Source: Prauserella halophila (GTDB lineage Bacteria > Actinomycetota > Actinomycetes > Mycobacteriales > Pseudonocardiaceae). From it: 64,000 nucleotides of DNA. A program made the translations under genes and the position numbers. The stretch is taken from positions 248,001-312,000 of the forward strand of contig NZ_JAMTCQ010000011.1 in the NCBI RefSeq assembly GCF_024171895.1, written 5' to 3'. The notes under the pieces were generated by a model, which worked only from the letters and a program-made list of their open reading frames with translations, was not told the DNA's origin and made no database searches. Of the stretch, positions 17,177-21,175 are shown piece by piece. Every line of letters begins with the position of its first letter. Position 1 is the stretch's first letter.

Positions 17177-18619
17177 ATGCCGGCGAACGGCCTGCGCACC
17201 GCATCGCGGATCTCGCTGACCCTGACCGCACTGGCGGCCATGCTGCTCGGATCACTGACACTGCTGGGCGGTTCGCAGGCCGCGGCCGAACCCGAGAGCG
17301 TCCCGGGGATCGACGTCTCGGGACATCAGGAGAACGTCGACTGGCAGCACGCGTGGAACACGGGCGCGCGGTTCGCCTACGTCAAGGCCACCGAAGGCAC
17401 CGGGTTCACCAACTCCTACTTCGCCCAGCAGTACAACGGCGCCTACGACGTCGGCATGATCCGCGGCGCCTATCACTTCGCGCGCCCGGACGTCGGCCCG
17501 GCCGCGCCGCAGGCCGACTACTTCGTCGCCAACGGCGGTGGCTGGTCGGCGGACGGCAAGACACTGCCACCGCTACTGGACATGGAGTACAACCCGTACG
17601 GCGCGGACCCCTGCTACGGCCGGTCGGAACACGGCATGGTCCGGTGGATCAAGAACTTCTCCAAGCAGCTGCACTCCAAGACCGGCCGCTGGCCGATGAT
17701 CTACACGACCACGGACTGGTGGAAGACCTGCACCGGCAACACTCCCCGATTCGGCAGCGACCACCCGCTGTTCATCGCCCGCTACAACGATCGCGTCGGC
17801 GAGCTGCCCAACGGCTGGCCCCATTACACGCTGTGGCAGTACAACGACCACGGACCGATGCCCGGCGACCAGAACACGTTCAACGGCTCCATGGCACAGT
17901 TGAAGCGACTGGCCCTCGGCGGCGAGGCCAAGCAGGAACCCGAGCCGGAGCCCGAACCGAAGCCGGAACCCGACCCGAAGCCGGAGCCGGAGCCGGAGCC
18001 CGACCCGAAACCCGATCCCGATCCCAGCCCGGAGCCGGAGCCGAGCCCGGAGCCCAGTCCCGAACCGGAACCGTCCATCCCGGAGTCGCCGGAGAACGAG
18101 GCATCGTCCTCCCCGTCCGATGAGGACACGGCCACAGGTGCCGACGAGGAGCCGGGCGACTCGCAGACCGGGGCGACCGCCGGCGACGCGGGCCAGGACG
18201 GCACCTCGGATGCCGGCGAGAACGGTGCGAGCGGCACGCCGGATCAGGTGGCCTCCGACCGCAATGCCGCCGCAGGCGACACCAGCGGCGAGGCCGAGGG
18301 CGACGAGTCCCCGGCCGGAACCGCCGGCGACGCCGAGTCCGGGGACGCCGGGGCCGACGGCACCGAATCCAACGGCACCGGGTCCGACGGCACCGAGTCC
18401 GGGGACGCCGGGTCCGACGGCACCGAACGGCTCGTCCTCCAGGAGGCCCCGCGGCAGGACGCCGAGCAGGCTCCGCGGCAGGGCAAGGGTCCGGACAAGC
18501 TCGCCGAGACCGGCGCCGCGCAGGACCTGCCTCGCATGATCGTGTTCGCCGCAGCACTGATCGTGCTCGGCCTGATCGTGCTGACGCTCACCCGCGGGCC
18601 CGCCCGTTCGCGACGCTGA
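17177..18619 (+). CDS. sortase-anchored GH25 muramidase (lysozyme)
   Basis: 480 residues. Signal peptide about 1-37; GH25 domain about 43-250 with [25 protein letters not shown] and the catalytic-site [11 protein letters not shown] long Pro/Glu/Asp/Lys wall-spanning region follows (about 255-310), then Gly/Asp/Thr/Ser-rich repeats. The C terminus is LAETGA, a hydrophobic helix and an Arg-rich tail. LAxTG is the sorting signal for class E sortases of actinomycetes, so the enzyme is probably covalently fixed to the wall it hydrolyses. ATG 17177 follows GGGAGGA. A terminator hairpin follows the stop. Confidence 0.93.
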
Positions 18620-18626
18620 CCCGGTT

Positions 18627-18675
18627 CGAGTGGTGCCCGGCCCCGCGCTGCGAGCGTGGAGCCGGGCACCACTCG
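18627..18675. terminator. bidirectional terminator hairpin
   Basis: CGAGTGGTGCCCGGC (18627-18641) pairs perfectly with 18661-18675 around a 19-nt loop. It lies between the ends of the convergent muramidase and metE-like genes. Confidence 0.75.
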
Positions 18676-18687
18676 TGTCGGCGGGTG

Positions 18688-20805
18688 TTACGGCAACGAC
18701 CTGCCGGCCGCCTCGGGGCCGGCCGCCGCGTTCCGCACCATCGCCAGGGCGTCGGCGTGTGCACGGACCGACGCCGTCGCGGGAGCGGTCGTCGTCACGT
18801 CGGCGTCGAGCGCCGCCGTCGTCTCCAGCGTCTCGTCGATCCCCGCGTCGCCCAGCTGGGTGCGAATCCGCGTCGAGGCCGCCGCGCCCGACGTCGCCAA
18901 CCGGAACGCCTCGGTCGCCCAGGTCCACCGGTCGCGGCGCGCGCGTTCCCGCAGCGGCGGACGCCGCCACAACGCGGGCTCGTCCACCTGGATCTCGCGG
19001 ATTCCGGCCGCTTCCAGGTCATGCACCTCGTCGCGCAGGACGAGCGCGAGCTGCGCCGCCGTGTCCGGCACCGGAACGTCGTCACGCACGAACGCCCCGG
19101 CGAGCACGGTCGCCGGGCCGGGCAGCACCCCTTTCACCACGGCCGTGGTCAGCCGCTGAGCGGCCGCGACCCAGTCGACCGTCATCGGCGCGGGCCTGCT
19201 CACGTCCCCTGCCACGATCGGCGGCCGCACGCAGTAGGCGCCGCTGTGCTGCACCCAGCCGTGCTCGGGCACCGCGATACCGCACAACCGCTCGGCGACG
19301 AAGCGCACCAGATCGTCGTGCCGTCGCTGGTCGGCCGACGGCGCGGCGAGGTCGGCGGCCTGCGGTCCGAGCACCTCCTGCAGGCGCACCACGTCGTGCA
19401 GGCCCGCGCGCATCCGTTCGCCGTAACACTCGTCGCTCCCGGGGCCCGTGCGCACCCGCCGGTCGACGGCCGCGACGAGCGGGTCGATCGGGTCGGTCGG
19501 CTCGGTCGGGTCGTCGGCCGACCGGCGGGTGCGCTCCTGCGCCGCGCGCCGGTCGGCGTATGCCGAGCGCCGCAGATGTGCGGGCCGCAGGGTGGCCAGC
19601 CGTGCCCGCACCCGGCGGTCGGCCGGCGGGCTCGCCCGGCGGCCGCCGAGGATCTCCCGCGCGTACGTCAGTTCCCCGGCGACAGTGTCCGGACCGCCGC
19701 GCAGCGCCGTGGCCAGGGTCACGACCTCGCGCACCTTCTGCGACGCGAACGCGAGCCACGGTGTGATCTCCGGGTCCAGTGCGGTCTCCCGGTCGACGTC
19801 GTACGGCACGTGCAGCAGCGAGCACGACGTGCTCACCGCCACCTCCCGTGCCGAACCGAGCAGCGTGGCCGCCGTGACCAACGCCGCGTCGAGATCGGTA
19901 CGCCACACGTTGCGCCCGTCGACCAGACCGGCCACGAGCGTCTTGTCCGACAGTCCCGGCGTGGCGACGACCGTGTTCACCGTGGACGTTTCCGACACGA
20001 GGTCGACCGCGACGCCCTCGACCGGCGTGGCGGCGAGCGCACCGAGCGCCGGACCCGGATCGCCGTACGGCACGGCGGTCAGCAGCGCGGGCCGCTGCGT
20101 CCGGGCACCCAGCACGGAGTAGGCATCCCGTAGCGCCTCCCGCTCGACATCGGTCCGGTCGGCGGCGAACGCCGGTTCGTCGAGCTGCACCCAGTCGGCT
20201 CCCGCCGCCTGCAGTTCGGCGAGCACCCAGGCGTACACCCCGAGCAGCTCGCCGAGGCGGTCCAGGGGCTGAAAGCCCGGCGGCGAACCCGGCTCCGGGG
20301 CGCACAGCAGCAGGAACGTCACGGGGCCGAGCAGCACCGGACGGGTGTTGATCCCCAGGCGCAACGCCTCGAGATGGTCGCGCACCGGGGTCCGGTCGGC
20401 CAGCGTGAGCGGCGTGTCCGGGCCGATCTCCGGCACGACGTGGTGGTAGGGCGTGCCGAACCACGGTGCGGTGGCCAGCGGCGGCACCGAGTCGGTGCCC
20501 CGCGCCATGGCGAAGTACGTCTCCAGCGGGTCGAGACCCAGCGCGCGGAACCGCTCGGGCACGGCGCCGGCCATCACGGCCGTGTCGAGGACGTGGTCGT
20601 AGTACGAGAAGGTGCCGCCCGGGACCGAATCGAGGCCCGCGGCGGACAGCTCCCGCCACGCGCGCGCCCGCAGTTCCCTGGCGACGGCACGGAGTTCGGA
20701 TTCGTCCGCGCGATGGGTCCAATAACGTTCGAGTGCCCGCGGCAGCTCCCTGCCGGGGCCGATCCGGGGGTATCCCAGGACGGTGGAACCGATGCTGCCG
20801 GTCAA
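18688..20805 (-). CDS. metE: MetE-like protein lacking the zinc site, riboswitch-controlled
   Basis: 705 residues, shorter than typical MetE (about 750-770). The N-terminal barrel is well conserved (LGYPRIGPGRELPRALERYW, YYDHVLDTAV, SCSLLHVPYD). The C-terminal barrel keeps PPIVAGDVSRPAPMTVDW and IQVDEPAL. The zinc ligands of B12-independent methionine synthase are missing: the THMC motif reads as RTQL, the third-ligand Glu after LDADV is Ala, and the chain ends before the PDCGLKTR segment. The HGE-x-ER-x-DMV homocysteine motif is also lost. TTG 20805 follows GGAGAGAG. No frameshift explains this, because other frames do not encode the missing motifs. Canonical catalysis looks impossible. Confidence 0.85.
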   Translation of the reverse strand: MTGSIGSTVLGYPRIGPGRELPRALERYWTHRADESELRAVARELRARAWRELSAAGLDSVPGGTFSYYDHVLDTAVMAGAVPERFRALGLDPLETYFAMARGTDSVPPLATAPWFGTPYHHVVPEIGPDTPLTLADRTPVRDHLEALRLGINTRPVLLGPVTFLLLCAPEPGSPPGFQPLDRLGELLGVYAWVLAELQAAGADWVQLDEPAFAADRTDVEREALRDAYSVLGARTQRPALLTAVPYGDPGPALGALAATPVEGVAVDLVSETSTVNTVVATPGLSDKTLVAGLVDGRNVWRTDLDAALVTAATLLGSAREVAVSTSCSLLHVPYDVDRETALDPEITPWLAFASQKVREVVTLATALRGGPDTVAGELTYAREILGGRRASPPADRRVRARLATLRPAHLRRSAYADRRAAQERTRRSADDPTEPTDPIDPLVAAVDRRVRTGPGSDECYGERMRAGLHDVVRLQEVLGPQAADLAAPSADQRRHDDLVRFVAERLCGIAVPEHGWVQHSGAYCVRPPIVAGDVSRPAPMTVDWVAAAQRLTTAVVKGVLPGPATVLAGAFVRDDVPVPDTAAQLALVLRDEVHDLEAAGIREIQVDEPALWRRPPLRERARRDRWTWATEAFRLATSGAAASTRIRTQLGDAGIDETLETTAALDADVTTTAPATASVRAHADALAMVRNAAAGPEAAGRSLP

Positions 20806-20924
20806 TGCTCTCTCCTCGCGAGCTCGTCGACACGGGTGCCGACGGTCTCGCCGGAGGGGCGCAGGCCGGCCGGGGCGCACCTGCCCGGCCCGTCCGCCCG
20901 GTCCACCCACGAGACCTCGGACCC

Positions 20925-20946
20925 GCGCGCACCGGGTGGTGCGCGC
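20925..20946 (-). promoter_or_regulatory. GC-rich hairpin between aptamer and metE-like gene
   Basis: GCGCGCACC and GGTGCGCGC form a perfect 9-bp stem with a 4-nt loop, 6 nt downstream of the B12 box on the transcript. It may be part of the expression platform or a short terminator. Confidence 0.45.
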
Positions 20947-20949
20947 GCC

Positions 20950-21145
20950 GGTGGCAGGTCTTCGGACTCGCGGGCTCTCCCGGCCGGGGCCGGAGGTCCT
21001 ACTGGCCGTCGCTTCCCGGACCCGGGGTCCAGTGCCGTTGACGGCGGTCGTTCCCGCTCACCGCTGCGGGGCAGTCCCGGATTCGCACCGGGTTCTCTCT
21101 TGCCTCACCCGGCAGGCCCGTGCGGGCCGGACGCGGGTGAACCAC
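20950..21145 (-). promoter_or_regulatory. cobalamin (B12) riboswitch
   Basis: On the minus strand the leader contains the hallmark core CCGGTGCGAATCCGGGAC, then TGCCCCGCAGCGGTGAGCGG. It ends with GAGTCCGAAGACCTGCC, the B12 box (20953-20970). The aptamer lies 5' of the metE-like gene, the classic place for cobalamin control of B12-independent methionine synthase: B12 represses so that MetH takes over. Edges are approximate. Confidence 0.92.
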
Positions 21146-21151
21146 CAGCAC

Positions 21152-21175
21152 GGCCACCCTAGCCCCAGGGTGGCC
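21152..21175 (-). terminator. hairpin after the acyl-CoA dehydrogenase gene
   Basis: GGCCACCCT and AGGGTGGCC form a perfect 9-bp stem with a 6-nt loop. It lies 110 bp past the acyl-CoA dehydrogenase stop and just before the riboswitch, so it may insulate the two units. Confidence 0.45.

Follow-up and report, generated by a model that had tools for sequence, protein, structure and literature searches.

A MetE-derived probable pseudoenzyme retained behind a conserved cobalamin riboswitch in Prauserella

The window analysed here is a 64,000-nt stretch of the genome of Prauserella halophila (G000; 5.05 Mb in 16 contigs). Its minus strand carries a cobalamin riboswitch followed by a metE-like gene, hereafter metE2, whose product appears to have lost the chemistry of MetE while its frame remains open. 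The features of the locus are the following.

18627–18675, minus strand: strong terminator-like hairpin 3′ of metE2, with no U-run (ΔG −54.3 kcal/mol, z −7.35)
18688–20805, minus strand: metE2 open frame, encoding a probable MetE-derived pseudoenzyme (705 codons, TTG start, TAA stop)
18691–19485, minus strand: remnant of the C-terminal (homocysteine/zinc) barrel, residues 441–705, without the IGSFPQ loop, HGE and the β7–β8 segment
18850–18870, minus strand: former zinc-motif region, residues 646–652, normally Q-I-H-T-H-L-C and here R-I-R-T-Q-L-G
19621–20805, minus strand: N-terminal barrel, residues 1–395, predicted fold kept, folate-contacting Lys/Asn residues lost
20806–20935, minus strand: leader from aptamer to start codon, including AGGAG at 20812–20816
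20936–21161, minus strand: cobalamin riboswitch aptamer (RF00174, 74 bits against a gathering threshold of 31.5)

As an earlier, sequence-only reading of this DNA had described, the frame is open for all 705 codons and is served by a good ribosome-binding site, the AGGAG lying 6 nt upstream of the TTG at 20805; the TAA stop occupies 18688–18690. That reading had also placed a clean terminator just behind the gene. A strong hairpin is indeed present, and the corresponding stretch in four relatives (L037, L038, L040 and L047) gives z-scores of −3.82, −1.98, −3.84 and −7.05 in sequences that have diverged, but ‘clean’ is too strong a word for a structure that lacks a U-run and is absent from the list of the consensus terminator scan. 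Beyond the hairpin, on the plus strand at 17177–18619, lies a gene for a GH25 lysozyme-like protein (PF01183) with a Glu/Pro/Lys-rich repeat linker, ending, by eye, in what we take to be an LAETG-like sorting signal and a hydrophobic stretch.

Both MetE domains are matched by the metE2 protein (PF08267, 331 bits; PF01717, 187.1 bits), which is 47–58% identical to the 38 intact MetE proteins in the alignment. Its score against TIGR01371 (581 bits) falls under the cut-off of 929.95, and that against NF003556 (645 bits) exceeds the cut-off of 541, which all four degenerate relatives tested pass as well. Because this second cut-off is passed, metE2 would be misannotated as a working MetE.

Homologues were sought in 60 genomes, comprising that of P. 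halophila and relatives, with seven Prauserella genomes as the genus sample. Orthologues with the same truncation, for which the sequence-only reading had proposed a search, were found in three more species, P. salsuginis (G005, 88% identity), P. isguenensis (G003, 81%) and P. aidingensis (G004, 79%); these are the best matches to metE2 and share its lesions, end point and locus. Since the same lesions recur in four genomes, a sequencing error is ruled out as their source. In the three additional species, no two-barrel MetE match was detected besides the degenerate metE2. The copy of P. rugosa (G002) has 720 residues and a different in-frame deletion, running from the linker to HGE, and another Prauserella, G001, encodes an intact MetE of 759 residues at the metE2 locus. 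In G006 the locus is present but metE2 is not, its slot being filled by an open frame that looks permease-like by eye; metE2 is thus dispensable within the genus.

A wider sample comprised 200 genomes of the family, of which 137 gave a match, strong or weak; among the matches listed, with at most five candidates scored per genome, no full-length one from outside Prauserella exceeds 58% identity. In a collection of named genomes, the HxHxC motif is present in 75 of the 80 best loci among 403 confirmed; it is lacking from four copies in Prauserella and from one in Nocardia, whose frame ends at residue 520.

The sequence-only reading had reported that all zinc ligands are lost and that the HGE homocysteine motif is gone, and the alignment bears this out. 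Compared with intact Prauserella MetE, the positions equivalent to His618, Cys620, Glu642 and Cys704 of T. maritima read Q, G, A and a gap, so that none of the four ligands is kept in metE2 or in its three orthologues, and the IGSFPQ homocysteine loop is missing along with HGE. Passages of PMC539065 describe the roles of the zinc, homocysteine and folate residues of MetE, and from these passages the folate and substrate positions were placed by motif and residue count. On this mapping, one of the three homocysteine side chains (Ser411, Glu462 and Asp577) is kept in the four-species clade, namely the Asp, which is retained in all five degenerate copies, and two of the seven folate contacts survive (Arg15 and Arg496, out of Arg15, Lys18, Lys104, Arg493, Arg496, Trp539 and Glu583). 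The damage therefore goes beyond the zinc and homocysteine losses first noticed, the folate residues of the C-terminal half (R493, the pterin residue W539 and E583) being lost too. The N-terminal barrel had been called intact; its fold is predicted to be kept, but its folate site is damaged, K18, K104 and the TNYHY asparagine being lost. Among highly conserved columns, defined as at least 95% conserved in the 38 normal MetE proteins, all four orthologues keep 80 of 94 in the N-barrel, 4 of 7 in the linker and 52 of 143 in the C part. The zinc positions of the P. rugosa copy read H, R, D and H. From these replacements, we infer that the metE2 protein can neither coordinate zinc nor activate homocysteine, and cannot hold methylfolate, as MetE does.

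The protein had further been thought to stop before the Cys of PDCGL. That Cys is absent, but perhaps not through a plain stop, the β7–β8 segment itself being missing: the last ~30 residues may represent the original C-terminal helix, joined on by an in-frame deletion of this segment. When the tail was aligned with normal C-termini, its score was reached by 1 and 26 of 1000 shuffles against P. rugosa, and by 12 to 872 of 1000 against other proteins. Five new arginines at or near former catalytic motifs are common to all four species (E495R, E614R, L615R, Q646R and H648R), and all 38 aligned normal MetE proteins have other residues there; the five were chosen from 48 clade-specific changes in a G+C-rich genome, where arginines may also be gained by chance.

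An AlphaFold2 model of the metE2 protein has a mean pLDDT of 88.2, with residues 675–705 unreliable, and its top 15 PDB matches are all MetE (TM 0.84–0.86), although strands of the second barrel are missing from it. This predicted fold is weak evidence because the predictor's alignment consisted mostly of normal MetE (38 of 43 rows), which can impose the fold. In the model of the P. rugosa copy, the C-terminal end is poor, with a block pLDDT of 47–70 from residue 631.

Selection on metE2 in the four-species clade was estimated by our own codon likelihood calculation under GY and MG models, omega being 0.094 (GY) and 0.128 (MG); omega = 1 is rejected under both (2ΔlnL 701 and 553). The estimates are similar across the protein (GY/MG: N part 0.08/0.11, linker 0.10/0.13, C part 0.10/0.14), and in 100-codon windows they range from 0.047, in codons 1–100, to 0.189, with 0.22 for the last 30 codons. 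Even the 54 formerly conserved sites that are replaced in all four species give an omega of 0.13 (2ΔlnL 42), 35 of them being identical in the four species, against 513 of 698 columns overall. Judged by dN/dS, a comparison that the sequence-only reading had recommended and that came out well under 1 along the entire length (0.09–0.13), purifying selection has acted on metE2 as a whole protein; and because the lesions are shared by the four species and so predate their split, the constraint acted after they arose. Slow mutation was considered as a source of the apparent constraint, and is rejected by a synonymous divergence of 0.24–0.51. Under substitution-only neutral simulation, all four frames stayed open in none of 2000 runs, and 4.8–7.4 stops would be expected per lineage.

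MG estimates for other genes are 0.046 for metH, 0.055 for the XDH-like neighbour (0.086 with other gene limits), 0.038 for another neighbour gene and 0.099 for the intact metE1 trio, which puts metE2 at 2.8 times metH and 1.5 to 2.3 times the XDH-like neighbour. A branch model of nine genes gives 0.145 for the crown of the degenerate clade, 0.23–0.26 for its stem and 0.12–0.13 for intact branches, whereas the P. rugosa branch gives 0.16–0.18, a value in which the periods before and after inactivation are not separable on one branch. By these estimates, metE2 is genuinely constrained, though less tightly than housekeeping genes, and was held more loosely along the stem, where the omega fits a period of relaxation or change.

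The claim that metE2 is still under a B12 riboswitch holds: the aptamer is the sole Rfam match at gathering within the 64-kb window, and all nine metE-like genes in the genus are closely preceded by an RF00174 match that exceeds the gathering threshold, a partial one in the case of the G001 gene (model positions 45–169) and of metE1 of P. halophila (14–178). Among the four species, pairwise identity is 93–97% for the aptamer and 91–97% for the leader with gaps left out (89–96% and 87–95% with gaps counted), compared, gaps left out, with 55–82% for upstream non-coding DNA, 46–67% for downstream non-coding DNA and 66–82% for four-fold sites. The TTG start and the last 30 leader bases are the same in all four. 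Because aptamer and leader are more conserved than flanking non-coding DNA and four-fold sites, the comparison indicates that the riboswitch is kept by selection along with the degenerate protein. By analogy with the riboswitch family, metE2 would be repressed by B12 and hence expressed at B12 shortage. The sequence-only reading had left two options, a B12-responsive protein with a new function or decay so recent that the frame is still undamaged. For the four-species clade, decay is rejected on account of the orthologues with shared lesions, the low dN/dS and a riboswitch more conserved than the neighbouring non-coding DNA; the first option is supported, the new biochemical function being putative.

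A second full-length metE or metH had been suggested as something to look for, and both occur in the P. halophila genome, which carries an intact metE1 and metH. P. rugosa has a full-length metE1 too, and metH is over its cut-off in all seven Prauserella genomes. In P. halophila, at G000:C6 (L158:10394-14766), metE1 adjoins riboswitch-preceded genes for class I ribonucleotide reductase, which is another B12-independent isozyme. Strong matches to PF00268, the small chain, occur only in the metE1-bearing genomes among the seven (P. halophila, P. rugosa and G006); none was found in G001, P. isguenensis or P. aidingensis, and P. salsuginis has only a 40-bit match. Since their sole two-barrel MetE is degenerate and a strong PF00268 match is absent, P. 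salsuginis, P. isguenensis and P. aidingensis appear, from their gene content, to be without the B12-free pair of metE and class I reductase. Outside these genes, each of the seven genomes has two or three further PF01717 matches, and the three such proteins of P. halophila are single-barrel and, by eye, keep Cys/His at zinc-like positions.

In a protein tree of 27 MetE sequences, the intact G001 protein, the P. rugosa copy and the degenerate clade form one group (support 100) apart from metE1. Within metE2 trees, the P. rugosa copy joins the degenerate clade with a support of 100 at full length and 65 from the N part only, a placement whose log-likelihood is better than that with G001 by 2.6 (N part) and 9.2 (C part). 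The metH tree, rooted with G009, instead joins P. rugosa with G001 (support 99), two alternatives being rejected (AU p 0.010 and 0.001), and the unrooted XDH-like tree makes the same pair. Furthermore, the P. rugosa copy starts with ATG and its leader ends in a particular stretch of 30 bases; both features match G001 exactly and not the other clade. This pattern could stem from two losses, or from a single one if there was a transfer or if a tree misleads; the rooted metH tree leans to two. A further discordance concerns the four species themselves. With G001 and P. rugosa as outgroup, metE2 groups P. halophila with P. salsuginis, whereas the XDH-like gene (99) and metH (82) group P. salsuginis with P. 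isguenensis and P. aidingensis, and the synonymous divergence of metE2 is also higher than that of metH (0.14–0.21). Interspecies recombination at the metE2 locus among these four is one possible explanation of the discordant grouping.

We consider it highly probable that metE2 encodes a pseudoenzyme descended from MetE, which is made when B12 is scarce and retained for a role other than methionine synthesis. In the history we propose, Prauserella would once have carried two riboswitch-controlled metE genes, metE1 and metE2, and the catalysis of metE2 would have been lost in one or two lineages; some species would now be without metE1 as well, making methionine presumably through MetH. MetE2, a paralogue of metE1, would no longer be a methyltransferase, purifying selection would keep the whole protein, and its expression would be set for cobalamin repression through the conserved riboswitch. 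Synteny with the intact MetE2 of G001 adds to the case, while an omega above those of metH and the XDH-like gene, the raised value on the stem, a genus sample of seven genomes and the absence of the gene from G006 count against it. As to the role itself, MetE2 could conceivably serve in binding or regulation at scarce B12, by way of its double-barrel scaffold and remodelled central cleft and not as a methyltransferase, a suggestion we make tentatively; neither a partner, a ligand nor an operon mate of MetE2 was found. More doubtful is the idea that the B12-switched pseudoenzyme has formed a new binding site in its old cleft, which at low B12 might take up RNA, an anionic ligand or a partner, for instance MetH; the reasons for thinking so are the shared new arginines and the constraint at replaced conserved positions.

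These readings have to be set against several others. A slowly decaying pseudogene, its frame open by chance in a GC-rich genome, would account for the missing catalytic elements and for the lack of the gene in G006, and true metE decay does occur in the family (the G091 remnant with stops, described below), but lesions older than the four-species split with an omega of 0.09–0.13 thereafter, the outcome of the neutral runs and a riboswitch and leader held more strongly than flanking DNA make it very improbable; it is refuted for the four-species clade and possible for the single P. rugosa copy. Equally hard to credit is a MetE2 that goes on transferring methyl groups, its remodelled barrel using another metal site or another acceptor: in the four-species clade, neither Cys nor His stands where any of the four ligands used to be, the β1 loop and the β7–β8 segment are missing and most folate contacts are gone, even if Asp577 persists in all five copies and the C part is constrained. 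It is unlikely, though less far-fetched, that the N-terminal barrel alone matters, for example as a binding domain, with the C-terminal half as a stabilising passenger. The better retention of conserved columns in the N-barrel, the lowest omega in codons 1–100 and the poorly predicted C-terminal end of the P. rugosa copy would fit such a division, but the C part has an omega almost as low and the replaced positions of the active region are constrained too.

One refinement is compatible with the pseudoenzyme explanation, and we give it somewhat less than an even chance: a non-catalytic second role of MetE2 preceded the catalytic loss, which then happened twice, in the P. rugosa line and in the four-species line. 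The two degenerate forms lack different segments, and the metH and XDH-like trees, the leader end and the ATG start all tie P. rugosa to G001, whose MetE2 is intact; on the other side, the metE2 trees themselves place the P. rugosa copy with the degenerate clade, and metH is one gene. That placement may reflect long-branch attraction or transfer. If catalysis was lost twice, MetE2 would have had its second role before dying as an enzyme.

Known MetE proteins (TIGR01371/NF003556; PDB 1u1h, 1xdj and 4l65) resemble metE2 in sequence, predicted two-barrel architecture and upstream riboswitch, and differ in what metE2 lacks, namely the zinc site, all but one of three homocysteine and two of seven folate residues, the β1 loop of the C-barrel and the β7–β8 segment. 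The core methionine synthases MesA–MesD have a single zinc barrel and no N-terminal domain, whereas metE2 has both Pfam domains and no zinc ligands. Zinc residues are also absent from the MesB-like proteins of Chloroflexales, members of the MetE superfamily for which, according to passages of PMC7857596, another function has been proposed. They are homologues of the single-domain core synthases, unlike the two-barrel metE2, and those passages mention no riboswitch or selection analysis (PMC7857596). MetE itself is thought, in passages of PMC539065, to stem from duplication of a homocysteine-binding barrel, and its N-barrel would thereby have lost a zinc site of its own; that change served folate binding inside one enzyme, whereas in metE2 neither half of the site survives. 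Control of metE by a cobalamin riboswitch is known from M. tuberculosis (PMC11260477), and metE2 shares the aptamer family and its position before the gene, with a product that looks catalytically dead. No paper on a dead riboswitch-controlled MetE or on Prauserella methionine synthase was found in the open-licence literature.

A riboswitch followed by metE is usually taken as a sign of B12-independent methionine synthesis. For P. salsuginis, P. isguenensis and P. aidingensis this inference would fail, their sole two-barrel MetE being degenerate. As a natural case in which chemistry has apparently been lost while regulation and, by prediction, most of the fold are kept, with an intact syntenic relative for comparison, metE2 makes the non-catalytic work of a metabolic enzyme directly testable.

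Other disrupted metE genes were encountered in the family. At G091:C1:3820683-3821306 (L167), an N-terminal metE remnant contains stops and still has a cobalamin riboswitch upstream, a contrast to the open degenerate copies of metE2. In G196:C75, G219:C14 and G079:C1 (L164–L166), the metE frame is broken in or near the inter-barrel linker and the riboswitch is kept; these breaks are either real lesions or assembly errors. A frameshifted normal MetE was considered for metE2 as well and rejected, the split copies of G196 and G219 being such cases, with C-terminal halves that lie in another frame and are 76% and 78% identical to metE1.
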